A DNA stretch of 64,000 bases, taken from assembly GCA_029945375.1 (NCBI GenBank), contig CM057057.1, forward strand, positions 558,001-622,000, written 5' to 3'. Shown in pieces: positions 28,430 through 48,116 of this stretch (positions are counted from its first letter, which is position 1; each line of letters starts with the position of its first letter). The notes under the pieces are model-generated. The model was not told the origin of the DNA. It ran no database searches and was given only the letters and a program-made list of their open reading frames with translations. The DNA is from Agaricus subrufescens. Lineage: Eukaryota; Basidiomycota; Agaricomycetes; Agaricales; Agaricaceae. The position numbers and the translations under genes are program-made.

Positions 28430-29870
28430 ACAGAGAGCGAAGAAATGTTGACATTGGTGGTGGGATGGGCAGGGTGTCGGAGTAGGTTGGTGGTCGCGAA
28501 AAAAGAGAGGATACGGTGGTGGGGGTGCGGCGACGTTGAGCAGAGGAAGGTGGTAGCCACAGGGGAGGAAAAAGAGGAGATAGCGGTGGTGGTAGCGGCG
28601 TGGATGCCAAGGAGGAGGGTGGCGGCAGTGGTTGCGAATGAGAGGTGGAAAGGAGTGGTGGTAGCGGCGGTGGATGGCAATGAGGAGGATAGCGGCGGCC
28701 GCGGTCGCGAAGGAAGGGAGTGGTGGCCGTGAAGGGGTCGCGAAGGGAGACAGCGGTCGTGGGTGATGTGTGGATTTGAGGAGAGGGCCGTGGTGGGAGG
28801 GCCGTCGTCGTCGCGTATGCGAGAAGAGGAGGGATGGGCAGACGGTGGTGGAAACGGCCGCGGATGACGGTGAGGGTGGAGGCGGCAGCAGTCGCGAAGT
28901 GGTCGCGAAGGGAGGAGGCGGAAGCCGCGGGTGATGGATGTAGTTGGGACAGAGGGCGGTAGGAGGGCGGTGGTCGCGTGTGGGGGGCGTTGGTCGCAGA
29001 TGGGAGGACGTTGGTCACGGGTGGGAGAAGAGGAGGGCGGTAGGAGGTCGTTGGTGGTGGGTGGGAGAGGAGGAGGGCGGTGGGAGGTCGTTGGTGGTGG
29101 GTGAGAGAAGAGGAGGGCGGTGGGAGGGCGTTGGTCGCGGATGGGAGGAAAGAAGGGCGGTGGGAGGGTGGTGGTGGATGGGAGGGCAGTGGTTGTGGAT
29201 GGGAGGGCGGTGGCGGTGGATGGGAGGGCGGTGGTGGTGGATGGGAGGAAAGGGAGGGCGGTGGTGGTAAAGGTGGTAGAGGTGGCGGATGGCGATGAGG
29301 GTGGAGGTGGTGGTGGTCGCCAATGAGTTGCGGCGGGCGTTGGATGGGGTTGAGGAGAGGATGGCGGCGGGAGGGCGGCGGTCGCGGATGAGAGAAGTGG
29401 CGGGTGGTGGTGGTAGAGGTGTTAGAGGAGGCGGATGGCGGTGGATAAGGTGGCGGTGGGGGTCGTTGTGAAGAGAAGAGGAGAGGGAGCGGCCACGGTG
29501 ATGATTTTGCGAAGAAGAGAGAGTAAGGGTGAGGGTGAGGGTGAGGTGGACGGCAGTGGCGGTGGTCATGAAGAAGGGAGGGGACGGTGGCGGCCGTGGT
29601 AATCGTGAAGGGGTCGCGAAGAGGAGAGAGCGAGGGTGAGAGTGAGAGTGAGGTGGGCACCACAGCGGTGGTCATGAAGAGGAGAAGAGAGGGTGGCGGT
29701 CGCGGTAATCGCGAAGGGGTCGCGAGGAGGAGAGAGTGAGGGTGAGGGTGGGGTGATGGGGTAGGGGATGGGGAGGGTAGTGGTCGCGGTGGTTGCAAAG
29801 AGGAGAAGGAGAGGTGGTTATGCAGTAGCCGCAGCGGTGTTGGAAGTAAAATAAAAAAAGGGGGGCGGTG
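28430..29870 (+). repeat. G-rich minisatellite, about 1.4 kb, with strong strand asymmetry
   Basis: Nearly all of this stretch is G-rich on the plus strand, built from degenerate units such as GGGAGGGCGGTGG. Around 29020-29260 units of about 40 bp (GAGGAGGGCGGTGGGAGG core) shrink to about 21 bp (GATGGGAGGGCGGTGGTGGT). Runs of GGG separated by 2-6 nt occur repeatedly, so G-quadruplexes are likely in the plus strand. All frames are largely stop-free, which explains the long Pro/His-rich open frames here. Confidence 0.85.
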
Positions 29871-30533: not shown

Positions 30534-32050
30534 TTATCCCCCTACTTCTGTTACTGTATCGCTCCGATCCACGATACCCCAATTGTTGCCATTGCGAACC
30601 CTCCCGACAACACATTCTATAGTGTTTAAGTCGACGGCTTCGATGACAGAGGCACCATGACAGTAAGGAATACCGTCTTCTTCTGTTGTATTCATACTCT
30701 GGATGATCGCAAAGATAATTGTGGATGGTGAGTCTAGTTTCAGTTGTGGGATGACCGGTAGGTCTAGCACAACGAGACGCTTCAACTGGCCATAATATAC
30801 GCGATTTTCATATTCTGGCTCGCGTCTCCTTTGTCTGGCAAAGCGATCTACACGGAGGATGTACTACATTGGATTGAGCTAGGAATCTTTTATATATAAT
30901 CAGGAAATAATACTGACCTTCACATAAGAAGCGTCTCGACTATCTTCGCTCTGCCTAACAATGTCACATGCGATCATGGTGTCGCCGTCGCCAAGACAAG
31001 TGACCTTGCCATACTGAAGGAGGGGGATATCAAGTTTAATGGCTGCTCGTATGACTTTTATTCTTGTATCAAATCGCGTAGCTAAACTCGCATGAATCTT
31101 CTTGCAAATAGGCGTCGGTAGGATTTCTTTCTGTCGAGTGCCCCAAAGTTTGTAAGTAGGATCTTAATTACCAAGTGAGTAACTGACTATTGCAAGGCAC
31201 AAGATACAACTTACATGAATTATGAATCAATTGATGCATCGTTCGCGACTGAAAATCTAGATTTAACACATCCTGTAGATTGTATAAGAGTCGAATTTGA
31301 TCGAGTTGGGCGGTTGCAATCATAAATGTATTAATAGACTCGTAGGGGTGTCGCCGACTTTTGATGGCACAGAGAAGATTGTTGCATTCCCGCTCCATCG
31401 GAAAAGCCCAGTAGCTCCAGACGGGGCCAGCTACCCTGATACCCCACGCAACATGAAGCAACGCGTGGAGTGTCAACGGGCAAGCAGAAAGTCGTTCTGG
31501 TTCGCCACGGTAGTAATACCTGAACTTCATTTAGAACAGATCATCCGAAGATTTTAGCCATTCTTACCGTTCGTAGTTACGTACCCAGTGGACGAAGCCT
31601 TCCTCGATTTGGAGTAACGTATCTTCATTCATTTCCATAGACAGACATTGCTTGAGGAGTGTAACAAGCTTCATGAAATGCTTGTAATACAGCGCCTTAG
31701 GGAATCTTCCGCGGAGAACAATCGGGGCAATAAAAAGTGTCCAGTTCGAATACATTTCGGCGGACATTTGCGATTGTTTTTTGGCAATGTTGGGGACACG
31801 AGCACCGAAGGAAGAGGGAATTGTTGACCCACATTCCTCCGTAGCCTTGCCAATCTCTTCCCAAGCCCGAGGACCTATTAGATATCCTTTGTTACTGTGG
31901 TCTAGATCCTTGAACTCGCCAATCCAAAATGATATCAAGTTGGGGATCAGGTTTTCCCAAATCAGGTGCATGAAATCGAAGGGAAATGATTCGGGGAATG
32001 AAATTGCGGATATATTTGAAAGGACTGGAAGGCCCTTGATACCATACCGC
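30534..32050 (-). pseudogene. Tnp2-like transposase, 3' half (separated by LTR insertion)
   Basis: C-terminal half of the CACTA transposase. From the insertion point the frame reads RYGIKGLPVLSNISAISFPE, PFDFMHLIWENLIPNLISFW, IGEFKDLDHSN, STIPSSFGARVPNIAKK, CPLTLHALLHVAWGIRVAGP, VWSYWAFPMERECNNLL, and ends DLNTIECVVGRVRNGNNWGI plus VDRSDTVTEVGG-stop. This order is characteristic of agaricomycete Tnp2 proteins. Exons: 32050-31568, 31519-31215, 31162-30918, 30863-30534. The last codon before the LTR joins exactly to the 5' half at 46357 (..FEDLAKR | YGIKGLP..) once one copy of the CCGC duplication is discounted. No stop or frameshift was seen, so this half is broken only by the insertion. Confidence 0.88.
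32047..32050. repeat. Target-site duplication CCGC of the LTR element, left copy
   Basis: CCGC before TG.. here and again after ..CA at 46357-46360. Because the base before each is A, a 5-bp duplication ACCGC with an LTR ending in ..TAC cannot be excluded. Confidence 0.8.
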
Positions 32051-33399
32051 TGATACGGCCCGCGCCGTTTTACGCGTAGAAATGTACTAGCTAGTATTTA
32101 CAAGGGTATAACACCCACTAGCCAAGGTGCAGGGTCAGAACCTAACCATCTCTCGACACCTCAATAGTATCTCTCGTAGTCTGATAAATCCGCCTTGACT
32201 CTTATACGGGAAAACTGTACCGTGTAAGGCAAATATAGTCACTAGCTACCAGGAATGATCCGAGTAGAGGCATTAGATCTGGTGGTGACAACTAATTAGG
32301 CCGAAATACGACGATGACGCTCTAACTACCTAGACGAAACGTCGATTTATGCTTAGCGAAACTACAGATCACTCCTCCCGAGATATACTATTCGAAGCAG
32401 TTGACCCGCAGAAGACATCGGCTCGGACAGGGAACGGCTATCACGCAAACTAGCGAGCTGAAATCCCATCAGATTATCGTGGACCCACTAGCTAGCCGGA
32501 CATATCACCGATTAGGATTCTCATCACATATCGATAACGAATCTGAACGGATAGAACGTTCAGCCAAGCGGCCTTCGGCATTCTGAAACCTGACAACGTA
32601 CCCATGTGGATGCCAGGGGTAGCACAATGAGGACTAGCTACCATTGTTAGTTGGAAGGGGTAAGGTGCTAAGCGACGTCAGGCAGCACCTGCTCCAACCA
32701 TGATGATTGGTGCGGATAGGATCTATCCGTACCCTCAGCCCAGTCCATATGATACCCTTAGTAATAGTAGAACTACTTTGTTAATATTTGTACGCATAAT
32801 GTGAATATAAAAACCCTCTAGCTAGCGTCAAGAAAGGCAAGCAATCTCCTGCCCACGTCTAGCTTTGAGGATTGTGATTTGTAAAGTAGCAATCTAATAA
32901 GTGAATAACAACTAGCTTGCGAGAGAGCTTCTAGAAAAACTCAGACTAGTTCAGCAGTTCACGTCGGAGACGTTACCCGCTCAGAGAATTCACTAAGTTG
33001 CCAGTGATACGATAGTTTAAGAGACTAGCTAGGCTACCATCGCACGCTTATATCCAGCAGAGGTGTAAGTTGGTGCTAGCTTGAGTTGTAATTGCGGAGT
33101 CGGTGGTTAACTGGCGAGTTATATCATGCAGCTCTTCATTAAACGTCATTGGTGCGACTTAGTTTGGCTACAACGCAGTAGCTAGAGTTCAAGTTCACGT
33201 AGCCCTTCGGCCCGTTCTGTAGCTAGAACAAGTTTGAGGATTCTTTATTTGGAATTCCTTCTTTATTAACTTTAACTTCGAAATAACCTTTTCTCTTGAA
33301 TATCTCCCCACGAACTTGCATTTACGAGTACTAGTTAGTGAAGTGTGGTGTGTTTATTAAACTAGCTACACCCTTAACGTTTCATTTACTACCTCTACA
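32051..33399 (+). repeat. 5' LTR
   Basis: Begins TGATACGGCCCGC and ends ACCTCTACA, about 1349 bp. A TATA box (TATAAAAA) is at 32806-32813. CTAG occurs about 22 times by my count, against about five expected. Confidence 0.95.
32806..32813 (+). promoter_or_regulatory. TATA box of the 5' LTR
   Basis: TATAAAAA followed by CCCTCTAGC; transcription probably starts 25-40 bp downstream, giving a leader of about 650 nt before the gag frame. Confidence 0.65.
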
Positions 33400-33401
33400 T
33401 C

Positions 33402-33418
33402 TGGAGCCCACCGCGAGG
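33402..33418 (+). other. Candidate primer-binding site
   Basis: TGGAGCCCACCGCGAGG begins two bases after the 5' LTR. TGG at the start fits complementarity to a tRNA CCA end; I could not assign the tRNA. Confidence 0.5.
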
Positions 33419-33483
33419 GGAGTTTCAGTGTAAAGGTTTTATTCGATATTTCATATCCTTTTACTTCTACTTCTTCAAGGCAC

Positions 33484-35460
33484 TTGCCTGAGCAACAGAA
33501 AAACCAACCTCAGCACTCTAGGAAGCCAAGCTTCATAGAGTTAAACAATACCAGCCCAACTCTGTCGCGTTTCAATCCAAGAGCGAGACAGACTAACAAT
33601 TCTCAGTCAAACGAACTAGTTCCTAGACTAGACGATCCTGATCAGATCTTATTCCAAAAGCGTAAAGCTAGGAAACAAAAAGCTCGCGAAACTAGCGAAA
33701 GCCAAACGAGCGCCCAATCAGAAGAACTAGCTAGCGGATCTAGGTCGGTCAGATTTAGGGAACCGGTTATCTCTTCACCCACAGACACAGAACCGAATCC
33801 ATTTTATCAACCAGCAGTGTTCGACGAAAGTTCATCACAGTTGGATATACCAGGGCAGTTTAAATCCGCAGACAACACAGTCTATCACTCTCTGCCTAAT
33901 TCGCCCGTGTCCCCTTTACCTAATACAGCGCAAACTAGTTTACCAAACAGCCGAGCTAGTAGCCCTACTCTTAATCAAAGAGTACCCGCACCATCAGCAT
34001 CATCAAACTCGAACTCAGCACAAAACATGCCTTCACCACATATGCCAGCACCTTTTTCCCAAGGCGCACCCAAATGGGACGGCGAAATAGACAAGCTAGG
34101 AGACTTCATCTGGCATCTAGAACGTCAGTTCGAAGTATCTAGTATTACCGATGACGCTGAAAAACTTAAATGGATGGTTAGTTATGTCAGCAAAAGCGTC
34201 AGGGACGAATGGATCAGTTTTGAAGAATACACCAATCAGAATTGGTCAAACTTCCTAAAACGATTAAAAGAGGAATACCCTGAACTAGTGACCGAAGAAA
34301 AAGGGTCAGTGGCCAAGTTAAAGGCAATTTGTAGAAAGTTCAGACAGATAGGAATAACCGATCAGGAGGACTTCTCTAGTTTCCGTCGGCAGTTCCAGTC
34401 GCAAGCAAATAAGTGCCAAGCGCCACCTTCGATTATCTCCAACAGGGAGCTAGTAGAAGAATTCGTGAATACTCTAAGTCCAGCTTTCAGGGATGCACTT
34501 GTGGCCAGACTAAGTCTACAAGGAACCCGTCAAGCATTACAAGGACAAGGAAGATCCGAGGATCCTTATACAATTTCAGAAGTAATCAGAAAAGCGGTCG
34601 AACTAGTTAACGGGAACAGCCTGACAGGAGTATATGCGATAGACGCAGCCCGAGAACGGAACCCTCGATCACACACTTCTAATATCAAAAAGGAAACTAG
34701 CAGTTCGTCCTCCTCTGTGCAAATGGAAATTGATGCTATGCAACAAGATATTAGCCAGATAAAAGATTCCATAGTGATTGGACGAAAAGAGATGCAAGAA
34801 TCGTTAGTAACGAGCCAGAAGAGCATGCAAGCTTATGTAGACTCGTTAAGTTCCAATATAACAGCCAGTATCGCTAAGCTTGGAACAACTAACTCGCATC
34901 AGCAGAACCGTAATCCGTCACAAAATCAGACCAGCTACCAAGGCAATTCGAACGCAAATTCGAATTGTTTCTATTGTAATGAAACAGGGCATCGATGGAT
35001 AGTCTGTCCTTATAAAACTCAGGACGAGAAGGACGGAAAAATAGTACAGGATGGGTCGAAGCTAAGGTTCGCAGATGGCTCCGGAATACCCAGAGAACCA
35101 GGAGTACCGATTAGAAAAAGTGTTGAAAAATACTTGCCCGCTTCCATGGCAGCTCTTATCTTTGGAGCGCCTGAGCTACCCCAAGGAGAAGACGAACCAG
35201 ATACCGGGTATTCAGTAACTAGTTCGAGTACCTCCAGGCCTATCCCACTTGTAGCTATCCAGAAAAGAGAGGATGTACAAAAAGCCAATGCACAGGCTTT
35301 GGAAATGGAGCGTATGAGAGGTCGTCTAGCAACAATGGAAACATTTGTACAAAACCTGATGCCACAAGCCAGACCGGAAACGGCTGAGGAAGATGAGCTC
35401 ATACAGCAAATGATGAAATTGTTTACTCAGAGGACCGCCGCCAAGAAGGCGGATTTTTGA
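33484..35460 (+). CDS. Retrotransposon Gag (capsid and CCHC zinc knuckle)
   Basis: Structural protein that packages the element RNA in virus-like particles. The frame is open from 33361 in the LTR to TGA at 35458-35460. The capsid-like region follows WDGEIDKLGDFIWHLERQF (near 34080) with DEWISFEEYTNQNWSNFLKR. A CCHC knuckle CFYCNETGHRWIVC lies at 34966-35007. There is no ATG in this frame before 34026 (MPSPHMPAP), and none in any frame from 33130 to 34025, so translation either begins at 34026, just before the capsid region, or at a near-cognate codon such as TTG at 33484 (used as the start here). The end overlaps a -1 slippery site leading into pro. Confidence 0.88.
   Translation: MPEQQKNQPQHSRKPSFIELNNTSPTLSRFNPRARQTNNSQSNELVPRLDDPDQILFQKRKARKQKARETSESQTSAQSEELASGSRSVRFREPVISSPTDTEPNPFYQPAVFDESSSQLDIPGQFKSADNTVYHSLPNSPVSPLPNTAQTSLPNSRASSPTLNQRVPAPSASSNSNSAQNMPSPHMPAPFSQGAPKWDGEIDKLGDFIWHLERQFEVSSITDDAEKLKWMVSYVSKSVRDEWISFEEYTNQNWSNFLKRLKEEYPELVTEEKGSVAKLKAICRKFRQIGITDQEDFSSFRRQFQSQANKCQAPPSIISNRELVEEFVNTLSPAFRDALVARLSLQGTRQALQGQGRSEDPYTISEVIRKAVELVNGNSLTGVYAIDAARERNPRSHTSNIKKETSSSSSSVQMEIDAMQQDISQIKDSIVIGRKEMQESLVTSQKSMQAYVDSLSSNITASIAKLGTTNSHQQNRNPSQNQTSYQGNSNANSNCFYCNETGHRWIVCPYKTQDEKDGKIVQDGSKLRFADGSGIPREPGVPIRKSVEKYLPASMAALIFGAPELPQGEDEPDTGYSVTSSSTSRPIPLVAIQKREDVQKANAQALEMERMRGRLATMETFVQNLMPQARPETAEEDELIQQMMKLFTQRTAAKKADF
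35451..35457 (+). other. Putative -1 frameshift site gag to pro (G GAT TTT, then TGA)
   Basis: In the gag frame the heptamer GGATTTT is read G GAT TTT and is followed directly by the gag stop TGA. It has the layout of the MMTV pro-pol site G GAU UUA. A one-base backward slip reads GGA TTT TTG AAA and enters the open pro frame. A strong hairpin lies downstream (35482-35510). Confidence 0.65.
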
Positions 35461-36530
35461 AAAGTCCAATGAAGAAGTCGACTTCTGGAAAAGAGGTTCG
35501 CTTCCAGAAGGATCAGACGACCGAGGACGATACAGAGAAAAGAAATAGAACTACAGACAACAGAGGAGTGTTCCCTTATAGAAGAGTGCCGGCTATGAAA
35601 CCAGTAGTGGAGGTACCACCTTTACCAGCCAGATACATGAATGAGACCAGAAAGCCTCCTAGTTATAAACATCAGACTCAAGTAGAGGAAAATGTCGATA
35701 TTAAAGAGGTTTTGACGCGTCTATTCGGCAAGGAGGTTACCTTAACACAGCAGGAGTTACTAGCTATGGCACCTAAACTCAGAGAAATGTGGAAAGAAGT
35801 GATCAGTAAGAGAAGAGTCCCTACAGGAAACAACACCCTAGAAGTGGAAACAGAGTTAAGATCAGAAACGGGACTAAACAGTACTTCCTCGCAGGAGAAT
35901 GGTTGGGATGTAGTAGATACCGCTTCGCTGGAAATCCCTAAACGCACTAGCGAGTTAGCTAGAAACGCGGCGGGGATATACGTGCAAAATTGGCGTATCG
36001 AAGATCCGATCATGCAATATTTGTCTACGTTGAATTCCAACGAACGACAAAAACAGATCTTCGCGGTAGCTAGTACAGAAGCAGTAGCCGCCAAAGGTAT
36101 GGAGCATCTCAGAGTAATCCCAGCCTTAGTAAATCGTGTTTGTGAAGAAGAAGCGTTACTAGATAGTGGATCACAAATCGTGTCCATGTCTAAACAAGCT
36201 GCCAGCGAATGCAAGATAACTTGGGACCCCAAGCTCAGTATTAATATGATGGGTGCTAATGGTGCTGTATCGCGAACAGAAGGAGTAGCTAGAAATGTGC
36301 CCTTCACCTTCGGAAACATCACAGTCCATTTGCAAGTTCATATTCTGGAAGGTGCAGCATACAGATTACTATTGGGCAGACCTTTTGATGTAATAACCGA
36401 GAGCAAGATAGTAAACTCACAGGAGGGTCTTCAGTATATAAACATCACAGATCCGAATACTAAAGAGCAGGCTACCTTGTCAACATACGCGAGAGGACAA
36501 TTACCCAAATCAGTAGATGTAAATTTTTAA
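35457..36530 (+). CDS. Retrotransposon protease domain (pro) in the -1 frame
   Basis: Aspartic protease that would cleave the Gag and Pol polyproteins. The frame begins by overlap with gag, has an ATG at 35469 and stops at TAA 36528-36530. The catalytic motif LLDSGSQIV (D at 36162) lies about residue 236; the C-terminal AYRLLLGRPFDV carries the L-L-G-R-P-F motif of retroelement proteases. The first ~150 residues are polar and lack a recognised domain. Because this frame has no long upstream leader of its own, expression by -1 slippage from gag is likely; termination-reinitiation at 35469 is the alternative. Confidence 0.85.
   Translation: MKSPMKKSTSGKEVRFQKDQTTEDDTEKRNRTTDNRGVFPYRRVPAMKPVVEVPPLPARYMNETRKPPSYKHQTQVEENVDIKEVLTRLFGKEVTLTQQELLAMAPKLREMWKEVISKRRVPTGNNTLEVETELRSETGLNSTSSQENGWDVVDTASLEIPKRTSELARNAAGIYVQNWRIEDPIMQYLSTLNSNERQKQIFAVASTEAVAAKGMEHLRVIPALVNRVCEEEALLDSGSQIVSMSKQAASECKITWDPKLSINMMGANGAVSRTEGVARNVPFTFGNITVHLQVHILEGAAYRLLLGRPFDVITESKIVNSQEGLQYINITDPNTKEQATLSTYARGQLPKSVDVNF
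35482..35510 (+). other. Hairpin downstream of the gag-pro slippery site
   Basis: CTTCTGGAA at 35482-35490 pairs perfectly with TTCCAGAAG at 35502-35510 (9 bp, 11-nt loop). A 12-bp palindrome GAAGTCGACTTC overlaps just before it (35474-35485). The strong stem is 24 nt after the heptamer, farther than the usual 5-9 nt, so the stimulator may involve the palindrome or a pseudoknot. Confidence 0.45.
36521..36527 (+). other. Putative -1 frameshift site pro to pol (A AAT TTT, then TAA)
   Basis: In the pro frame the sequence reads A AAT TTT TAA. The heptamer AAATTTT fits the canonical X XXY YYZ slippery pattern exactly and is followed at once by the stop. After a -1 slip, reading is AAA TTT TTA AGT.., which is continuous with the pol frame. 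Confidence 0.75.
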
Positions 36531-39500
36531 GTAGCTTCGAGGAATTCGAGCCCTGGCTTGAAGGAGAAGCGGCCTGCATCATCAGTCAAGACTCCGACAC
36601 TAGTCAGCCATATATCAGTGAGGTCTTGCCGATTCAATCCAACAAGCTAGACGATGAAGAAGTAAAACTAGTATATTTACAGAAGAGCTTGGAAGAAGTA
36701 GACCTTCCTGAGAAGGCAATTTTCAGTCAGTACCTGCAAAACGTCACCACAGACTACCAACCATACCATAAAGTAGTCGCAGTCGAAGAAGATAAACAGT
36801 GGAAACCAACCATGGTGCTAGCTAAGAAATATAAACCCGTGGCGCTAAAAGTAAAACCAGTCCTGGGAGAGCTACCAGCGAAATTCCGCATAGAGCGAGA
36901 TATAACTGGGGATCCGTTAGAAGGAATGCCCAAGTTAATGGTAAACCCACCCGAGTTTGAAGCCAAGGGGCGCTATACTCAGGAAAGAAAGGACAAACTA
37001 GATACCGCACACGGCGGAGATTTCTTATGGCCTGAAGAACGAAAGTTAATGCACTGGCTGATCGCCCAGCAGAATGAGTGTTTTGCCTGGGAAGACAGTG
37101 AACGAGGTAGCTTCAAGGAAAAGTACTTCCCAGCAGTAGAAATACCCACAGTGGCACATACCCCATGGGTAGAAAAGCAGTTTAGGATACCCCCAGCCAT
37201 ATACGAGGAAGTCTGTCGTATAATAAAGCGCAAAATAGATACAGGAGTCTATGAACCATCAAACTCGTCGTACAGGTCTAAATGGTTTTGTGTCTTAAAG
37301 AAAGATGGAAAAAGTCTCCGTCTGGTACACAGTTTAGAACCGTTAAACCGGGTTACGATCGCACATTCAGGGCTTCCTCCAGCTACTGAGGAACTAGCTA
37401 TGCACTTTGCAGGGAGAGCCTGTACAGGAGTACTTGATCTGTGGGTCGGGTACGATAACCGTAAACTAGCTAGTTCATCCAGAGATCTCACTACGTTTCA
37501 GTCACCCTTCGGAGCCCTCAGGCTAGTAACTTTGCCGATGGGATGGACAAATTCGGTTCCTATTTTTCATGAGGACGTGACCTTTATACTCAGAGAAGAG
37601 ATCCCTCAGTATACGTTGCCCTATATAGATGACGTGCCTATTCGAGGACCCGCTACCAGATACGAACTAGATGGGTCTACTACTAGCTACGAGGTTTTAA
37701 AAGAAAACCATGGCATCAGACGATTCGTATACGAGCATCTACAGACAGTTAATAGGATCCTACAACGAATGAAATATTCAGGAGGGACCTTCTCCGGTCC
37801 CAAGACTACGATATGTGCAGATTATATCACGATCGTAGGATTTGAGTGCTCATATAAAGGTAGGAAACCTTCTAGGGATGCCATAGGGAAAATACTCCGT
37901 TGGGGGGAATGTACCGACACTACAGATGTCAGAGCATTCTTAGGGACGGCAGTACAATGCCGAAATCACATTCCTAACTTTGTGACCTTGGCAGCACCTT
38001 TATATAATATCTGTAAGAAGGGTGTACCGTTTATATGGGGGCCAGAGCAGGAACTAGCACAGCAAAGACTAAAAGACAGCATAGCTAGTTGCTTTCATAC
38101 CCGAAATCCTAAATTTCCAAGTACTCAGCCGATAGTGTTAGCCGTTGACTCCTCTTGGCGCGCGGTGGGATACTACATCTATCAAAGGGATGAGGAAAAT
38201 CCGAAGATTATCCATTATGTGAAATTCAACTCTATCTTGATGGATGAAAGGCAGCAGAGGTATTCACAACCTAAGAGAGAGTTGTGTGGACTTAGAATGG
38301 CGCTAGAAGAAGAAGTTTATTTGCTCAGAGGAAGCAGAAATCTCATCGTCGAGACGGACGCCAAATATCTACATGGAATGTTAAACAATCCGGGCAAGTT
38401 ACCTAATGCAACAGTTAACAGATGGGCGGATTATATCCGAACTAATTTCCAATTAGTTTTACTCCATAAGAAAGGAAAGACTTTTGGACCCGATGGGTTA
38501 TCTAGACGCAAATGGTATCCGGGAGATCCCATAGAACGGCGATTCGACGATGTGTCAGAAGATGACCAAGGAGACTTCGAACTAGTAAAGGAAAACCCGG
38601 ATGATGAGGATCCCTTGCCTTTAGAGGACTTCATTGAGGAAATTGATGACAGAACAGGCTTCATACAGCAGATAATGAACGAAGATAGTCTGCTACAGTT
38701 AACAATAGCAGAAGCTAACCAGGTTTTACAATCAGAAATACAGCAGAGACGACAAATGGCTAAGTCCGCAGACTGTCCGGATCCGTTGAGGATATTTCTG
38801 AATAACGTAGCAGACATGGAGGAACAAGCTACGTATCAAGAACCTGAAGGGCCGACAGTAGATGACGATTCAGACGAAATTAATGCGGAGGAAGATCCTT
38901 ATGATCAAGATAGGCGTACTTCCGAAGCAAGGATGCAGGACAGACAATTAACTCGAATAAAAGAATGGCTAGCTAGTAACCCTAGTAATGTCAATACATC
39001 GAAAATGTCCCCAGAACAAGCGAGGTTCATCAGGGCAGCCTCACATTTCTGGATAGACGATCAAGGACGGCTATTTAGGAAGATATCAGGAACCGGGAAC
39101 CCACAGCTAGTTGTGGAAATCGATCAGCGCATGTACATTATGAAACAGTGTCATGACAAGTTAGGACATCGAGGGGTGTACGCAACCAACAAGCTAGTAT
39201 CGCAGAGATTCTGGTGGCCAGAGATGGAAGGCGACGTAGCCTGGTACGTCAAGTCCTGCCACCTGTGTCAAGCTAGACAGAAGATGGCAATGGAACTACC
39301 GCCAGTAGTAACCCATACACCATCGATATTTCAGATTCTGCATGCCGATACGGTACATATCTCTACAGCCTCCAACGGTTGTAAACATATAGTGCATGGG
39401 AGGTGTGCGCTCTCATCATGGATGGAAGCCAGAGCATTACGAAAAGAAGATGCCAAGTCTATTGGGGCTTGGCTCTTCGAAGACATAATATGCCGATGGG

Positions 39501-40336
39501 GTAGCTTAGTCAAAATTGTCACAGATAACGGTGCCCCATTTAGGAAAGCAGTCCGATGGCTAGAGGAGAAATATGGGATTAAAGGAGTAGCTATCTCCCC
39601 ATATAACTCACAAGCTAATGGGACAATTGAGAGACCGCATTGGGATCTGCGGCAGATGCTTTACAAGGCTACCGGAGGAGATCTGAAACGATGGTTCTGG
39701 GTATTACACCACGTAACCTGGGCCGACCGGATAACAGTCAGAAAAGGCACAGGTTGCTCACCATATTTCATGATAACTGGGGCCCAACCAACCATCCCGC
39801 TGGATATAGAAGAAGCAACATGGCTAGTTAGCTACCCTAATAAGATGATATCCACGGCAGAATTGCTAGGGCTACGGGCGCAAGCGCTAGCTAAGCACAT
39901 CTCGCATGTAGAAGAAATGCGACAGAGAATTAGTGAAGAAAAACTTCGACGGGCCTTGCAGCTGGAAGAAGATATGAAACATAAAATAAAAGATTTCAAT
40001 CTAGGACCAGGAGATTTGGCTCTAGTAAGAAATTCGGCTATAGAAATGTCAGCAGACAGGAAAATGAAAACTAGATACTTAGGTCCAGTGGTTATCGTCA
40101 AAAGGCTTAAAGGAGGAGCATACCTTGTGGCAGAATATGACGGCTCAGTATGGCAGAATAAGGTGGCAGCCTACAGGATAGTGCCCTATCTAGCTAGGCG
40201 AAAAATCGTATTCAGCGATAAAGTTCGCGGCCTCTTGGACGCTACTGAGGAAGAACTGGAGTTGTTAGAGAAGCAAGAGCTCGAGAGATCTTTAGATGAG
40301 GAAAAAGACGTCGAACTAGTAGTCTCAACCACTTAA
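36527..40336 (+). CDS. Retrotransposon Pol (reverse transcriptase, RNase H, integrase)
   Basis: Polyprotein for element replication and integration. The frame is open from the slip site to TAA at 40336; no ATG is needed. RT: LRLVHSLEPLNRVTIAHSG, TGVLDLWVGYDNRKL, FQSPFGALRLVTLPMGWTNS and the catalytic YIDD at 37622-37633. RNase H: VLAVDSSWRAVGYYIYQ and VETDAKYLHGML. Integrase: zinc-binding HDKLGHRG..CHLC, then HADTVHIS, IVTDNGAP and NGTIERPHW giving the D,D,E triad. A GPY/F-like module (RYLGPVVIVKRLKGGAYLV) follows. The order RT-RH-IN places it in Ty3/gypsy. About 1270 residues from the slip site; no inactivating mutation was seen. Confidence 0.95.
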   Translation, partial: LSSFEEFEPWLEGEAACIISQDSDTSQPYISEVLPIQSNKLDDEEVKLVYLQKSLEEVDLPEKAIFSQYLQNVTTDYQPYHKVVAVEEDKQWKPTMVLAKKYKPVALKVKPVLGELPAKFRIERDITGDPLEGMPKLMVNPPEFEAKGRYTQERKDKLDTAHGGDFLWPEERKLMHWLIAQQNECFAWEDSERGSFKEKYFPAVEIPTVAHTPWVEKQFRIPPAIYEEVCRIIKRKIDTGVYEPSNSSYRSKWFCVLKKDGKSLRLVHSLEPLNRVTIAHSGLPPATEELAMHFAGRACTGVLDLWVGYDNRKLASSSRDLTTFQSPFGALRLVTLPMGWTNSVPIFHEDVTFILREEIPQYTLPYIDDVPIRGPATRYELDGSTTSYEVLKENHGIRRFVYEHLQTVNRILQRMKYSGGTFSGPKTTICADYITIVGFECSYKGRKPSRDAIGKILRWGECTDTTDVRAFLGTAVQCRNHIPNFVTLAAPLYNICKKGVPFIWGPEQELAQQRLKDSIASCFHTRNPKFPSTQPIVLAVDSSWRAVGYYIYQRDEENPKIIHYVKFNSILMDERQQRYSQPKRELCGLRMALEEEVYLLRGSRNLIVETDAKYLHGMLNNPGKLPNATVNRWADYIRTNFQLVLLHKKGKTFGPDGLSRRKWYPGDPIERRFDDVSEDDQGDFELVKENPDDEDPLPLEDFIEEIDDRTGFIQQIMNEDSLLQLTIAEANQVLQSEIQQRRQMAKSADCPDPLRIFLNNVADMEEQATYQEPEGPTVDDDSDEINAEEDPYDQDRRTSEARMQDRQLTRIKEWLASNPSNVNTSKMSPEQARFIRAASHFWIDDQGRLFRKISGTGNPQLVVEIDQRMYIMKQCHDKLGHRGVYATNKLVSQRFWWPEMEGDVAWYVKSCHLCQARQKMAMELPPVVTHTPSIFQILHADTVHISTASNGCKHIVHGRCALSSWMEARALRKEDAKSIGAWLFEDIICRWGSLVKIVTDNGAPFRKAVRWLEEKYGIKGVAISPYNSQANGTIERPHWDLRQMLYKATGGDLKRWFWVLHHVTWADRITVRKGTGCSPYFMITGAQPTIPLDIEEATWLVSYPNKMISTAELLGLRAQALAKHISHVEEMRQRISEEKLRRALQLEEDMKHKIKDFNLGPGDLALVRNSAIEMSADRKMKTRYLGPVVIVKRLKGGAYLVAEYDGSVWQNKVAAYRIVPYLARRKIVFSDKVRGLLDATEEELELLEKQELERSLDEEKDVELVVSTT

Positions 40337-40461
40337 CAAAAAGCTAGATTGCGAAACAAACACTAGCTAGGACACGATCTTCAACGGAAAGGACAGGACG
40401 GTCTCAGAAGTACAGAACTACTACAGTAACCTTGAAAAGGGACAGGGGCTAGGCTAGCTAG

Positions 40462-41796
40462 TTAGGTGCCCTTGTTAAGCATACCCGTCAAAGTATCTTG
40501 TTGTTGTGCGAGGAACTCGTAACGGCGTACAGAAACTTCCAAGTCCTGAGCAGCCGAAACTAATTGGCCATTAGTGACCAAGTATCTAGCCTCCAAGTTG
40601 TGCTTGGATGAGGTCTTGAGGGCGGCATGGTCGACCTCGAGGGCGGAAGCGGCAAGTCCTTGTACAACACTAAGAAGGCCTTTGCCTAATAGATATGCAT
40701 CAGTACAGATCATAAACTAGCTAGTAGCAGATACCGCACCAGAATGTAACGGGGCAGTTATGGATGCCGCAGTACCCATACCAGTAAGGAGCTGTACAGC
40801 GCGTTTGTAAGTCCAGCTACTAGTATCCAAGCCGGGCACAGTGGCATAAGGAATACGCACCGTCTGGGGACGAATAGGAGATGGCCCCTGAAACGACCAG
40901 ATAGAGAGGACTAATCAGGAATGGGTGCGATATCAGAAGTAGTTAGTTGCACGCACCGCAGCAGAACAAGAGTTGCTTCGAGTTCTGGCGGAAGAGGCTT
41001 CACTACCTGGGGCAGTGGGGACGAGAGAAGGAATAGACCCATCATCGTCGATCTCCATGGCCTAGGGGCGATATTAACCACTAGTTAAGAAACAAGAAGA
41101 AGATCAGCTTACGTTAGATGTAGCAGGAAGCTTAGGAGCATTATGAGGAGGGACGACAACGACCTCCTCTTCGCTACCGCTATCGCTACTCTCGACAGTG
41201 GCAGAGGACTTAATAGTCTTAGCATAACGACGCTGAATCCTCATCAGCACCTAATAGAGCAAGTAGCTAGAGGTTTACCTTTTTAGAAGGAGGGACGTTA
41301 GACGCCTCAGACCCAGCCGAGGAACCTTTAGTGCTGATATTGGATACAGGGGTGGCGTTGCCGGACGAGGGACCCTTGGTACGAGTCTTCTGTTCCAGGA
41401 TCTCAACTAGCCTGGAGTATACAGTGGGATACTTGTAATCCTTTTCGAAATTGTCCTGCCAGTGGTCGAAACAGCGTTTAGTACGGCCCAGCAATTTGAA
41501 TATCTCGGGCTTGTCAACGGCTGCGGGATCGGACTTGAGCTGCTGTAGCAAGGCAGTCTGTATGGCATCGTTAGATAAAACTAAAATAGGACAAGCTAGC
41601 CACAACGCACAGCAGAATCAGGCACCAGGGACAAGGCATTGCCTACAGAACCTCGAGTGGTTTGTTTCGACTCGTAGCGATTGACGCGATGGTGATAATT
41701 AGTGACATTATCTTCCAACTCGGTCTTAGCTAGTTGCGTATCGGGACGTAAACCGCCAGAAGGGCCAGTAGGGGCATTGGAAGGGGTCGAAGACAT
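40462..41796 (-). CDS. Antisense accessory gene B of the LTR element (359 aa)
   Basis: Spliced gene on the strand opposite to gag-pol, ending 126 bp from the pol stop, tail to tail. Six exons close in frame (1080 nt): 41796-41611, 41557-41279, 41250-41113, 41061-40957, 40887-40740, 40685-40462. Introns are 29-69 nt with GTGCG/GTAAA/GTAAG donors. The product begins MSSTPSNAPTGPSG, has a helical DNFEKDYKYPTVYSRLVEI segment, a basic/acidic Ser-rich centre (SSDSGSEEEVVVVP) and a helical, possibly coiled-coil C-terminus (GLAASALEVDHAALKTSS.., EVSVRRYEFLAQQQ). No known family was recognised. An in-frame ATG at 41910 exists but lies upstream of a TATA box, so 41796 is preferred. The exon 5 donor has alternatives in the same phase. 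Confidence 0.7.
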
Positions 41797-41857
41797 GTAG
41801 GGCGAATCGAGGGTAGGGTAGGCGGTTCGATGTCTGAAAATAAACCGAGGAGGGCCT

Positions 41858-41865
41858 CTTTTATA
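41858..41865 (-). promoter_or_regulatory. TATA box of antisense gene B
   Basis: TATAAAAG on the minus strand, 62 bp upstream of the ATG at 41796; spacing is similar to that of gene A (53 bp). Confidence 0.6.
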
Positions 41866-42603
41866 GCCGCCTCGACCAGCAAAATCAGATACGAAGCGAA
41901 CTCGACCCATGGCATCCTGCTAGCTAGTGAGCGATAATAAAGCATGGGTAGGGGGACTTGTTCACTTCTCGGGTACCTACCGACCACATGCTCCAGAGCA
42001 CGTAACTTGGTAGTTCGGAAAAATGTAAGCGGCATTCGCTTAGACCTGCACACTTGTAAAGGACGTGCTAGCTGGTGTCACAAGGGCAACTTATGCACTA
42101 AGTGTTCGACGAGGGCGTCTTAAACATATAGTGGGGGGGAGGGGTAAAAGAGAACCTCCGTAGGTTTTTTCAGGCCAGGCCGTAAGCAGCAAGGGAATAT
42201 ACAAGACCTTTACCTCGCAAAAAGACAGAAAAGCAACCAGCCTAATGCTGGGAAGAGATCGGCTTCCGATCTACTCTAAAAAGAGGAGCGATCGGATTAC
42301 AGATAGCCCAATTTCAAATAACAGAGCGAAATCTCAAAGGTGTGACGCGATGAAATAATTGCCACCAGAAGGAGATAAGTTGTAGTTACGGATCAAGAAT
42401 CCGATTAGGGCACCAGCTAGCTGTTTGCGGAAACACAAGCTAGGAACGGAACAACAGAAATTTGAATTCAGTACTTTAACTACGACAGAGATGGGAGTGG
42501 ATACCCGAGTTAAGTACAGATTCAAAACAAGACAACAGCAAGATAAGACAGAAAAATAAAATGAAACCGTGGCAGAAATGGAGACCCCACCAGCAGACGA
42601 CGA
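41866..42603. other. Spacer between the two antisense genes
   Basis: Holds the 3' side of antisense gene A and the promoter of antisense gene B. No further gene is supported. CTAG-containing words recur here as in the LTRs. Confidence 0.5.
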
Positions 42604-44390
42604 TCAAACGGCAGACTCGTCCACCACAGCCTTGCCTTTGCCTTTGGACGGCGAGGAGCGAGAAGAGGAGGTAATGGGGACGACGGCCTCAGCGGCCACC
42701 TCCTCTTCAGAAGCATCTTCATCGGCGGCCTCCTCTCCAGCAAGTTCGTCATTGACAGAATCTTCAGAAGCCTCAGTTGGCTGGCGAAAGTGCATCTCCT
42801 GAGCCATCGTATTACGAGTTGAAAAACTAGCATGAAGGGGGGGCCTCTCCGGGAGGTTACTCCAGTAATGACCGCCACGGTGCAAGTCGTCGGTCTCATG
42901 AATAAAGTTCATCATGTCGCCGTAAGCCTGATAGAGACGAAGAGCGGCTTCATGAGAAGCTTCGGGGGCGCCAGGGGACGGAAAGAATTGTTCACAAATC
43001 TCGAAAAGCGTATCGAGTTGCGAACGATCCTTGACGAGATGGGCGTTGACGAAATAATCGGGATCGTGGGCATGCACTGCTCGAGCTTGCAAAATCTCCG
43101 CGGCGTGACAGGCACAATCAGACAGAAGACGAGCTTGGGACAATGACAGAAGCTTCTGTTGCATCGTCAATTGAGTGTAACCAACGCTAAGATTGCGCGC
43201 GGCAACACGAAGAGCTAGAAAAGAAGTAAAACCGACAAAATCAGTACAGAAAAAGACCAAAGAGAAAAGACGTACAGGACTCGCTAGAGAGACCATGAGA
43301 ACGGAGGGCCTCGGCCAAGAATTGGACCACAGGCGCAGGCTTATTGTGGGAGCAATGGGAACGGCCTTTAGCGCGACAAGTTAAACATGCAGCACCAGCT
43401 ATAGCAGCGCTGAGTTCGTCACGCACGTCCGCCGTCGCTGCCCGAGTCTCACCAGAAAGAGTATCGTAAGAATGATCACAGATGTTGAAATTCAACAAAC
43501 AAGAGATACAACCGCCATCCGGGACCGCACGAGAGCAGATATCAGAAGCCATAGTGAAGAGGCTAGCCGTATGATCAAGGATGGGGGTGCCAGCAACAAT
43601 ACCATAGTCCCGTACTAAGTCGTCGCTACGACGTAAGCCTGTAAAAGAGCAGATCAGCGAAACTAGTTTAAAAAGAAACGGAAGTCTTCAAAACATACCA
43701 CTGCCACGAACCGGGGGGGGGTGTTTCTTATCGAATTTGGCCTTCTCAGTGATAGTAAGCAAGGCGCCTTTGCGACGCTCGATAGGGTCCGCCTTCGGAG
43801 CTTTCGTTTTGGCAGGGAGGATTGTTTTGGACGTGGAAGCGGGAGGAGTAGCTTTGATTTTGGAAGCGGCAGCAGACTGACGCGCAGAGGTGCGAGGAGC
43901 TTTAGCGGAAACCACCTCAGGCGAAACAGAACGAGGGCGCTTCTGGCCGCGGGCTGGGCGCTCAGCAGAATCGTTAGCCAATTCGTCAACGCTTCCTTCG
44001 GCAGTTTCATCGGCGGAATCCTCGCTAGACACCGAACAATCAATAGCATCCCTAGTTAGTATCATCCTAAGGATCGACTCACGGATCAGAAGCAACGGGG
44101 TCCTCTACCTCAACAACGGGAAGAGGGTCCGGTTCAGCGGCTTGCAACTTCGCCAGTTTCTCGGCGAGGGCAGTCTCCTCAGCGCGAGCTTGTGCGAGTA
44201 CGCGAGCAGCAGTCTTTGCAGTCAAAGAGGCCTTCAAAGCCACAAGCGCCGCCGACGGAGGGGCAGATGTAGTAGCAGAAGAAGCGGCGACCTTTTCCTG
44301 TTTGATATGGGGCCGAGACTTAGATTTGGGAGCAGTTTGAGGCTTCGAGGCGACAGTAGACTTGCGAGGCTTGGGTTTAGCAGCAGGCAT
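42604..44390 (-). CDS. Antisense accessory gene A of the LTR element (535 aa, Cys-rich)
   Basis: Spliced gene opposite to gag-pol. Four exons close in frame (1608 nt): 44390-44083, 44024-43699, 43638-43276, 43214-42604; introns are 58, 60 and 61 nt and the first contains a TACTAAC branch site. Residues 1-100 are Ala/Lys/Ser-rich and basic (MPAAKPKPRKSTVASK) then a charged helix. An acidic stretch and a basic region (RGQKRPRSVS) follow. Residues 246-309 hold a double cysteine cluster: C-x8-C-x2-C-x6-C-x-H, then C-x2-C-x7-C-x-H (ACLTCRAKGRSHCSH), suggestive of a zinc-binding, perhaps DNA-binding, fold. The C-terminal part is helical and ends in an acidic, Ser-rich tail. No named family was recognised; role unknown. 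Nuclear location is inference from the basic clusters. Confidence 0.75.
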
Positions 44391-44442
44391 CGTAGAAGCA
44401 GGAGGCAAGAAACAAAGGACACGCTACCAAGCCAAGGAAACG

Positions 44443-44450
44443 TTTATATA
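44443..44450 (-). promoter_or_regulatory. TATA box of antisense gene A
   Basis: TATATAAA on the minus strand, 53 bp upstream of the ATG at 44390. It makes an independent antisense promoter inside the element likely. Confidence 0.65.
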
Positions 44451-44992
44451 AGGCGTTCCCGGCCGAGTTGGTAGTTGGCCGAGCCCGTAACCGCCGTACC
44501 TAATAAAGCAACGCCACCTACCTAATCCTATGCCATCGCAGGAACACGATTAAAATCGGACGAGACAAAAAGCACGGACGAGCTGTTTTGTCCATCCATA
44601 CCAGTTACAGCGATGTTTCTGTCTCTACACAAGTGAGCTAGACAGTAAAAAGACAGAAGAATCAGTAGCTATCGAGGAACGGAGGATAAGGTATAAAAAT
44701 AGAAGCGGAGATAGCGAGTCCGATCAAGCGATGGAGGATCCGCCAACCCGGGAACTAACTAGTTAACCCCGAGGTCCGAGATCTAAAAATATTCGCCACG
44801 TGTACCCAATATTCCGCACCCCGTAGTTAAAATGACAGGCAGACCGCTAGTTCCTAAAACATCAGCAACACGTGTGGCTAAAAGCACCCGAGGGATTCGC
44901 GTAGGCACAAGTCAGTATACCAGAAGCATGGCAACAGCCCCGATAAACTCAGAAATATCCAGCAGTTCGATGACTGGGGACAGTCAGCTTAT

Positions 44993-45005
44993 AGTGAGGG
45001 GGAGA
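44993..45005 (+). other. Polypurine tract before the 3' LTR
   Basis: AGTGAGGGGGAGA directly abuts the TG of the 3' LTR, as required for plus-strand DNA priming. Confidence 0.8.
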
Positions 45006-46356
45006 TGATACGGCCCGCGCCGTTTTACGCGTAGAAATGTACTAGCTAGTATTTACAAGGGTATAACACCCACTAGCCAAGGTGCAGGGTCAGAACCTAA
45101 CCATCTCTCGACACCTCAATAGTATCTCTCGTAGTCTGATAAATCCGCCTTGACTCTTATACGGGAAAACTGTACCGTGTAAGGCAAATATAGTCACTAG
45201 CTACCAGGAATGATCCGAGTAGAGGCATTAGATCTGGTGGTGACAACTAATTAGGCCGAAATACGACGATGACGCTCTAACTACCTAGACGAAACGTCGA
45301 TTTATGCTTAGCGAAACTACAGATCACTCCTCCCGAGATATACTATTCGAAGCAGTTGACCCGCAGAAGACATCGGCTCGGACAGGGAACGGCTATCACG
45401 CAAACTAGCGAGCTGAAATCCCATCAGATTATCGTGGACCCACTAGCTAGCCGGACATATCACCGATTAGGATTCTCATCACATATCGATAACGAATCTG
45501 AACGGATAGAACGTTCAGCCAAGCGGCCTTCGGCATTCTGAAACCTGACAACGTACCCATGTGGATGCCAGGGGTAGCACAATGGGGACTAGCTACCATT
45601 GTTAGTTGGAAGGGGTAAGGTGCTAAGCGACGTCAGGCAGCACCTGCTCCAACCATGATGATTGGTGCGGATAGGATCTATCCGTACCCTCAGCCCAGTC
45701 CATATGATACCCTTAGCAATAGTAGAACTACTTTGTTAATATTTGTACGCATAATGTGAATATAAAAACCCTCTAGCTAGCGTCAAGAAAGGCAAGCAAT
45801 CTCCGGCCCACGTCTAGCTTTGAGGATCGTGATTTGTAAAGTAGCGATCTAATAAGTGAATAACAACTAGCTTGCGAGAGAGCTTCTAGAAAAACTCAGA
45901 CTAGTTCAGCAGTTCACGTCGGAGACGCTACCCGTTCAGAGAATTCACTAGGTTGACAGTGATACGATAGTTTAAGAGACTAGCTAGGCTACCATCGCAC
46001 GCTTATATCCAGCAGAGGTGTAAGTCGGTGCTAGTTTGAGTTGTAATTGCGGAGTCGGTGGATAACTGGCGAGTTAGATCATCGCAGCTCCTCATTAAAC
46101 GTCATTGGTGCGACTTAGTTTGGCTACAACGCAGTAGCTAGAGTTCAAAGTTCACGTAGCCCTTCGGCCCGTTCGTAGCTAGAACAAGTTTGAGGATTCT
46201 TTTATTTGGAATTCCTTCTTTATTAACTTTAACTTCGAAATAACCTTTTCTCTTGAACATCTCCCCACGAACTTGCATTTACGAGTACTAGTTAGTGAAG
46301 TGTGGTGTGTTTATTAAACTAGCTACACCCTTAACGTTTCATTTACTACCTCTACA
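45006..46356 (+). repeat. 3' LTR
   Basis: About 1351 bp, begins TGATACGGCCCGC and ends ACCTCTACA, nearly identical to the 5' LTR. The single ATG in the 5' LTR leader (33127, ATCATGCAGC) is changed here to ATCATCGCAGC. Confidence 0.95.
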
Positions 46357-48116
46357 CCGCTTTGCGAGGTCTTCAAATGCGGCATTAGTGGGCGACATTT
46401 GCACAGTGATGGCTTGTTCCATCAGCTCATCGTGAACCCGCATCGGAAGGTTACTTGGATCATAATGGGTGGGGTTAGCATTTAGAAGTTTATCCCGTCG
46501 TAAGGGAACGTAGTAGGTTTTTTTGGCTGCCGCATGGTTGCATATACCCTTGATATTGCAAACGCGACACGGACTAAGTGCGTTTGAACCTTTCATGTTC
46601 ATAACAAGCGCCATGGCAGGTATATCACCGAAAATGAGAATGAGATAGGCGTGGAGGAGAAAGTATGCCTCGGAAATCGAATCCCAAGCCTTGACACCAG
46701 CCTCGAGTTGGATTAATTCTTGAACAAGAGGCCAGAAATAAGAATCTATGTCCCATGGTTTCTTAGGGCCCGGGATAACGCCAATCCTTAACCGGTGCTT
46801 CTTTTGGAACCGTACATCGGGCGCAAGGTTATAGACAAATAAGACGATTGGCCAGCACGTCTGGCTACGTCGCTTGAAGGGGGCAAACCCATCGGTTGAA
46901 AGACCAAGGGCGATGTCACGCTCGTCGGAAAAGTAATAGAAGGTGTTGTCAGTGTCGCCTGTGGGGACAATAGTTTGGAGGAGTTCTCGATAATACGAGC
47001 CGTCGAAGACATCTCTGATTATGCCTGGCTCGTGTTGGAATTCTGCTCGATAGCGCATCTTTTGAGCATGCTCACGGCTGGATAACATAGCGAGTAGGCG
47101 AGGAATGATAGGGAGATATGCAAAATATTTGCGTGGCTGGCCCTTGGCATTGAACCTTGGTTCGTTGCATTCGGGATTTGGGCATGTGCTGTGATGTTCA
47201 TATGGCCCGGTGAAGCAGACGCAGCTGTTGATGCAACAGCTGTAACGAATGGGCTGTAATCCGGACAAAGCACGGACGCGCTTCTTCGTCATTTTGAGTG
47301 AGTCGTGATGCTCGTTGCGAAATACGCGTGCCATTCTCGTAAATGTCCTATCGGTTAAGCGATCTTCTATCTTGAGAGTATACTTGAGGAGAAGGTCGAT
47401 ATCGGCCTCACTAAGGCTCGGAGAATCATCTATAGATGAATGAGATACATGTGAATACGATGCGAGGATAAGGACGTACCAAATGCCGCTACTTCGCGTC
47501 TACAACGTTCCAAGACTTTATCCCAGAGAGTAATGCCTGCCACATCTGTACGAAGGTCATCACTTTCTTCATCTGTTTCGTCACCACTTTCGCGATTATC
47601 ATCCGAAACTTCTTCGTCGGCAAATAACAAGTCAAAAAGTGTGTCTGTTGGAGGTGCGGGTTGTTCCTGATCGCCTTCTTGATCATCTTCATCATCTGAC
47701 CCTCGTGTCCATCGAGATTGTCTCCAAGTTCGCTGTATCGCCATCCCCATTTGCTCTCTTGCTCTGGTTGCCCGCCTAACATCAATGCCAACTTGCTCCT
47801 CGAGTGAAGGATGGCTGTCAACAGGAGAAGATAGAGGTTCTGCTGCGTCTAGTGCATGATCTGCGGTCTCAGATAGAGTTTGAATGGGGGGAGGCAATGA
47901 TGGAGGGGCGGCAGAGGTAGTTTCCAGGCGTCTCCTTTTGGTTGACCGCGTGTCTTCTATCGAATGCTGGGAGGGTGGGCGCCAGGAGGCGGTCACTGCA
48001 TTGTGCGCAACAACCTTAGACCGGCACTCTAAGTGTCGTGCTCTTACACGGGGAGGGACCATTCCACCGCAAGGACAGCGACACTTAACCTTAGATGTGC
48101 CCCTTCTACGCGCCAT
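46357..48116 (-). pseudogene. Tnp2-like transposase, 5' half (interrupted by LTR insertion)
   Basis: N-terminal half of the CACTA transposase. Exon 1 is 48116-47480, exon 2 begins at 47429 and runs into the LTR element. It starts MARRRGTSKVKCRCPCGGMV with a small Cys cluster, then a disordered acidic region, then ADIDLLLKYTLKIEDRLTD, CCINSCVCFTGPYEHHSTCP, NPECNEPRF, PRKYFAYLPIIPRLLAML, YYFSDERDIALGLSTDGFAP, VIPGPKKPWDIDSYFWPLVQ, LILIFGDIPAMALVMNMKGS and CRVCNIKGI, the standard order of agaricomycete Tnp2 proteins (zinc-binding C-x-C pairs and a DDE-type core). The frame is intact up to the insertion. Together with 32050-30534 it would have encoded about 990 residues. Confidence 0.88.

Follow-up and report, generated by a model that had tools for sequence, protein, structure and literature searches.

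Genes that lie antisense between pol and the 3' LTR are already established in several LTR retrotransposons, namely Retand, Grande and RIRE2 of plants and Boty of Botrytis (PMC11963269, PMC7264820, PMC8365987 and PMC4227169; these and the other papers below are cited from parts of their text). In the plant Ty3/gypsy elements (Retand with TRP28, maize Grande with gene23, and rice RIRE2) the antisense gene is found in most copies, that of Grande has its own promoter and a nuclear product, and a regulatory role has been proposed for the plant antisense genes (PMC11963269, PMC7264820). Among fungi, the brtn gene of Boty (Botrytis, Sclerotinia) lies antisense at the 3' side of a Ty3/gypsy element (PMC7264820, PMC8365987, PMC4227169). 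HTLV has an antisense protein gene near its 3' end, an analogy named in PMC11963269, and its antisense promoter lies in the 3' LTR (PMC7264820); the LTR elements of bdelloid rotifers carry accessory genes after pol (ORF3) that are expressed from spliced messages, have env, DEDDy, GDSL, CC and TM domains, and are not described as antisense in the part of PMC5408684 cited. The word "intron" is absent from the main text of PMC11963269 and PMC7264820, as is "antisense" from that of a survey of fungal LTR elements (PMC3248453), and no basidiomycete element with spliced antisense genes was found among the matches listed in titles and abstract beginnings of open-licence papers, a scope outside which Repbase and most subscription papers lie.

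The window analyzed here is a 64,000-nucleotide stretch of the Agaricus subrufescens genome (C1:558001-622000), and the genome searched comprises 44.65 Mb in 44 contigs. It contains an LTR retrotransposon whose features, in window positions, are as follows:

32051-33399, plus strand: 5' LTR (98.6% match to the 3' LTR; its ends and the CCGC target duplication were read)
33484-35460, plus strand: gag frame (weak Ty3_capsid match, E 0.0018, below the curated cut-off)
35457-36530, plus strand: protease frame with DUF4100 (gag-asp_proteas, E 1.4e-8; DUF4100, E 3.1e-8)
36626-40336, plus strand: pol frame with RT, RNase H and integrase (Integrase_H2C2, E 6.3e-18; RT_RNaseH, E 7.3e-12)
40462-41796, minus strand: antisense gene B, 353 aa, exons 41796-41611, 41557-41279, 41232-41113, 41061-40957, 40887-40740 and 40685-40462 (homologue B2 in locus L039, E 1e-21)
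41858-41865, minus strand: TATA-like box of gene B, TATAAAAG, some 60-70 nt upstream of the ATG
42604-44390, minus strand: antisense gene A, 535 aa, exons 44390-44083, 44024-43699, 43638-43276 and 43214-42604 (homologue A2 in locus L039, E 9e-22)
44443-44450, minus strand: TATA-like box of gene A, TATATAAA, some 60 nt upstream of the ATG
44994-45005, plus strand: purine-rich stretch GTGAGGGGGAGA just 5' of the 3' LTR (direct reading)
45006-46356, plus strand: 3' LTR (comparison of the LTR pair)

What appears to be new here is the presence of two antisense genes, with three and five introns, that are kept across a clade of fungal elements. Like the genes of Retand, Grande and RIRE2, A and B lie antisense between pol and the 3' LTR in most copies, and in related elements as well; unlike those plant reading frames they are found in a fungal element and are two in number, here with three and five introns (the comparison is by description, and as regards TRP28 neither A nor B has a match in Pfam). 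Boty brtn, also compared by description only, differs in being a single gene in ascomycetes, in an element with a chromodomain (PMC4227169). The position of the HTLV promoter in the 3' LTR likewise differs, by description, from that of the TATA-like boxes in the window, which are inside the element beside each gene. We consider it probable, though well short of assured, that the whole of the following statement holds: the element carries two constrained, spliced antisense genes whose products have a nuclear role in trans on their own element.

The element at 32051-46356 is, as classified from its LTRs and the order of its domains, a complete Ty3-like LTR retrotransposon. The LTRs are 1349 bp (5') and 1351 bp (3') long, the 4-bp target duplication CCGC flanks the element on either side, and Pfam matches place gag, protease, RT-RNase H and then integrase in one direction. 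The pol translation contains YIDD, which we take to be the RT motif, and the purine-rich stretch at 44994-45005 is presumably the polypurine tract. Even with E values up to 1 allowed, the core models RVT_1 and rve did not match the pol frame, which marks the cores of RT and integrase as divergent. The 3' flank (46342-47334, minus strand) encodes part of a tnp2-family transposase (Transposase_21, E 6.9e-26), and the element therefore appears to have been inserted within another transposon; the frame in the 5' flank (31567-31971, minus strand) has no Pfam match.

The earlier note on this DNA had proposed one spliced antisense gene of four exons at 42604-44390, encoding a 535-residue protein with two cysteine clusters and basic N-terminal regions and having its own TATA box. 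This gene, A, was reproduced exactly: its introns of 58, 60 and 61 nt are all GT-AG, the joined exons give exactly 535 aa and end at 42604, the gene lies between pol and the 3' LTR on the strand opposite gag-pol, and a TATA-like box precedes it. The cysteine clusters are the pairs 255/258 and 296/299, followed by H306-C307, and the basic regions are residues 1-33 (net +9) and 126-212 (net +16). In the block C255-x2-C258 ... C296-x2-C299-x6-H306-C307-S-x2-K-P the named residues are invariant in four aligned sequences, and no known zinc-finger family in Pfam matches A. The zinc-binding nuclear factor proposed in the note thus has a conserved candidate pattern of metal ligands in A; neither DNA binding nor zinc binding is backed by any domain assignment, which counts against the explanation favored below. 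After this block come a helix-rich part, with helices taken from a low-confidence model, and then an acidic tail; single-sequence models gave pLDDT values of 54 for exon 3 and 53 for exon 4. The note was incomplete, in that it missed the second antisense gene. Gene B has six exons and five introns, also on the minus strand, and sits between gene A and the end of pol; its end and the pol stop are 125 nt apart, the two genes being convergent. Its protein has a basic PPxKK motif and an RxRSNS motif that are both invariant in three aligned sequences, and its C-terminal part is leucine-rich.

Searches for relatives of the two proteins were negative within the following limits. The 5.8-billion-protein set gave no homologue with A, an alignment of the A core or an alignment of B as queries, which is weak evidence of absence since this set may hold few fungal proteins (and each search scored only about 8000 candidates sharing most words). 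No relative was found in the PDB (best E 2 and 1.3) or among viral contigs, and Pfam had no match for either protein below E 0.3. The highest 19-residue Kyte-Doolittle means are 1.14 (A) and 1.11 (B), so neither has a membrane segment, and the reading as an envelope protein is rejected.

The family of the window element is, judged from its copies, one that has multiplied recently. Exon 3 of A as a DNA query finds 22 places in the genome (20 at 100%), and a piece of the RT matches at 100% in 20 places, each within a 1290-aa open pol frame. These 20 and a copy on C3 make up 21 near copies, all of which have GT and AG at all three A introns and 17 of which have an intact A; such abundance of near-identical intact copies makes expression and splicing directly testable in this genome. 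Four copies have a broken A: single-base changes disrupt the frame in L026 and in L029, L028 is decayed, and the fourth is L027, the copy on C3 (a match of 89% along the gene); L027 was left out of the dN/dS analysis because of its broken frame. The earlier note had held that copies with the A frame destroyed and gag-pol intact would speak against its proposal: in L026, L028 and L029 the pol frame is indeed open and A broken. These three, out of 20 copies that match the RT piece at 100%, count against the explanation we favor; the other 17 keep A intact. The three lesions differ, so no multiplied subfamily lacking A is seen, and either A is not needed in cis in every copy or it was lost after insertion. 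A further point against the favored explanation is C5:3220413 (95% RT), which has no match to A exon 3.

Are A and B also found in more distant elements? A genome search with A gave distant matches at 27-28% identity. At the three such loci that were read (L039, L040 and L041) the pol C-terminus is 64-67% identical to that of the window element, an A homologue lies opposite pol, and B is present too. For L039 the pol C-terminus is 65% identical, and A and B are about 27% identical: A aligns with A2 over residues 213-410 (27%, E 9e-22) and B with B2 over 356 columns (26%, E 1e-21). The introns recur as well. All five introns of B have the same order and phases in B2 (three in the same alignment column, one a column off, and one five columns off in a gapped stretch), and two of the three introns of A recur in L039: the third introns of A and A2 fall in the same column, and the second of A and first of A2 are both of phase 1, offset by six columns over a gap of five residues; the first intron of A and the second of A2 are not common to both. 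Splicing does not take introns out of the genomic RNA when they lie antisense to it; spliced genes can therefore stay on that strand, and each new copy would carry the introns along. By this reasoning antisense placement explains how the introns persist through the RNA stage, and introns common to diverged families are what such persistence predicts.

The distribution of A and B was determined by comparing genome searches with A2 and B2 against 23 RT places, 18 of 63-79% identity (the clade; two of them, C13:1134697 and C37:43178, are partial) and five of 47-57%; the window family, C5:3220413 and C21:3033 (both 95%) and short fragments of RT were not counted. Fifteen of the 18 clade matches have A and B homologues, antisense and in the same order, 2.2-6.1 kb beyond the RT. 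The other three lack A or both genes and count against the favored explanation; C5:19553 has part of B only, and C2:3575115 and C26:16457 have neither gene within 10 kb of the RT. Also counted against it is the lack of A and B, among the matches listed, at the five RT places of 47-57%; the flanks read at three of these five hold other elements or nothing recognizable. The RT fragments at C3:3954148/3953741 and C3:4224107/4223700 (62-69%) and at C12:982949/983356 (57-62%) have no A or B among the matches listed, and C8:339229, an RT fragment of 40% identity with many stops, has both A and B nearby. There are also A or B matches with no RT match nearby among the matches listed (for example C8:639475, C11:2221565 and C5:86157). 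At one of these, G000:C8:639475-640478, exons of the A type (one of them within an open frame of 341 aa) have neither RT nor B nearby among the matches listed; the locus would be a remnant, or else a gene co-opted by the host.

Pairwise dN/dS values (Nei-Gojobori) between loci, a check that the earlier note had suggested, fall below 0.5 for both genes in most pairs: 0.16-0.48 in 43 of 45 pairs for A (10 loci) and 0.11-0.46 in 24 of 28 pairs for B (8 loci; the other four pairs are saturated), although the pairs have branches in common and so are not independent. For lack of a full set of located exons, both sets omit L049 and that for B also omits L048 and L052. Two A pairs exceed 0.5, L039/L040 (0.75; L040 departs in the last exon) and L051/L042 (1.62; almost no changes). 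Between L039 and L041 the values are 0.08 for the pol C-terminus, 0.11 for B, 0.24 for A and 0.15 for A exons 2-4. Splice junctions, projected from L039 onto 11 loci (L039-L042 and L046-L052, so that L039 is itself one of the 11), are GT..AG in 29 of 30 cases for A and 37 of 41 for B, with 3 of 33 A and 14 of 55 B junctions not examinable; one B intron is GC..AG in L051 and L042. Internal stops are present, as projected, in seven of 10 A loci and three of 8 B loci of the related families (three A and five B loci are free of them). These stops count against the favored explanation, and they mean that the constraint reflects the past of the lineage and that many copies are decaying.

The homologues beside RT, the recurring introns and the dN/dS values together argue for A and B as protein genes under selection and against chance frames, and we regard it as very probable that they are two constrained genes of the element. 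The claim that a spliced antisense gene belongs to the element and is kept by selection is thereby upheld for A, for which these data rule out a chance open frame. Both gene models are known here from sequence alone; even so, homology of the spliced products (E 9e-22 and 1e-21), shared introns and dN/dS below 0.5 in most pairs make it exceedingly improbable that the two are chance frames or artefacts of gene modelling. Could the antisense transcript rather than the protein be what matters? Noncoding antisense RNAs of retroelements are known from micropia and TART (PMC7264820), but the constraint is on amino acids and the splice sites are kept in introns whose interiors, in four pairs, diverge by 16-27% (A) and 7-18% (B), so a regulatory antisense RNA is very unlikely. 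We give marginally less credence still to A and B being captured host genes, passengers of no use to the element. They do resemble ordinary intron-bearing fungal genes, and several related copies contain stops; nevertheless they are kept under constraint in diverged families of the clade, and neither the matches in this genome nor the protein set, in which fungal proteins may be few, yielded a host source gene.

The selected proteins that we therefore prefer to see in A and B would each be made from the gene's own promoter, at the TATA-like boxes. They may then enter the nucleus, as the basic segments, the Cys/His pattern and the proposals for the plant elements suggest, and there, much as proposed for Grande and Retand, could affect in trans the expression or integration of their own element. 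Taken alone, such a regulatory role of A and B is in our judgment an even call. A component of the particle or nucleoprotein made from the antisense strand, with a part in packaging or as a chaperone, is rather improbable. The basic segments and Cys/His pattern of A would suit it, as would the retention of both genes beside pol, but separate antisense promoters and introns would uncouple the dosage of A and B from that of gag, and gag already ends in a zinc knuckle-like CFYCNETGHRWIVC (a weak match to the knuckle, E 0.3).

The rates of change bear on a different role. When the window family is compared with that of L039, the accessory proteins A (dN 1.03) and B (dN 0.94) prove to change faster than pol (dN 0.26), by a factor of about four, which counts against the favored explanation. 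Such fast change is expected in conflict with the host, and sense and antisense RNAs of one element could, by reasoning, form double-stranded RNA; A and B might work chiefly against host silencing, be it by RNAi, heterochromatin or cytosine methylation, rather than regulate the promoter of their element. Relaxed constraint outside the conserved blocks would account for the fast change too, and no domain or homologue of a known suppressor was found in the protein set, Pfam or the PDB, so we hold this to be unlikely, though less so than a particle component. Intron-sensing surveillance has been demonstrated for human HUSH and intronless elements (PMC8770142). A more speculative idea, to which we attach only slight probability, is that A and B form a two-protein module by which the lineage overrides host silencing, their intron-bearing mRNAs passing for those of host genes under surveillance of that kind and the sense genomic RNA remaining unspliced across the module. 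What the window element shows is a lineage of LTR retrotransposons in stable possession of two conventional multi-intron genes, kept antisense through repeated reverse transcription, together with two constrained orphan protein families that bear on how fungal elements are controlled.

The LTRs and flanks of the copies allow some additional observations. The LTR pair in the window has 15 mismatches and 4 gap columns, with the differences in the distal half of the 5' LTR, and five sibling copies with both LTRs read have 0-1 mismatches between theirs. This location and the sibling values rule out reading the divergence as the age of the window copy and indicate an exchanged LTR segment, which seems to have come from another subfamily. 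The four bases after the 3' LTR are NCGN, with a central CG, in 18 of 18 copies with a readable LTR end (13 distinct flanks; two of 20 copies showed no LTR end), that is, at window positions 46357-46360 and in 17 copies (L054, L056, L058, L060, L062, L064, L065-L072 and L074-L076), which suggests that the integrase strongly prefers CpG sites. Target duplications match in 11 of 13 copies with both flanks read. The duplications are mismatched at C13:1342749 (L078, L065) and C1:2236719 (L080, L069), each of which has one flank in common with the window copy, by either exchange between copies or a mis-join in the assembly. Among the related elements, L040 is a mosaic, about 99% like L039 on its gene-A side and about 97% like L041 on its pol side, which suggests recombination between related elements, and in L041 a unit of about 155 bp is repeated in tandem at 256-1710, upstream of gene A. 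Outside the element, window positions 28961-29750 contain G-rich direct repeats with a 40-bp spacing, within a stretch of strong GC skew.
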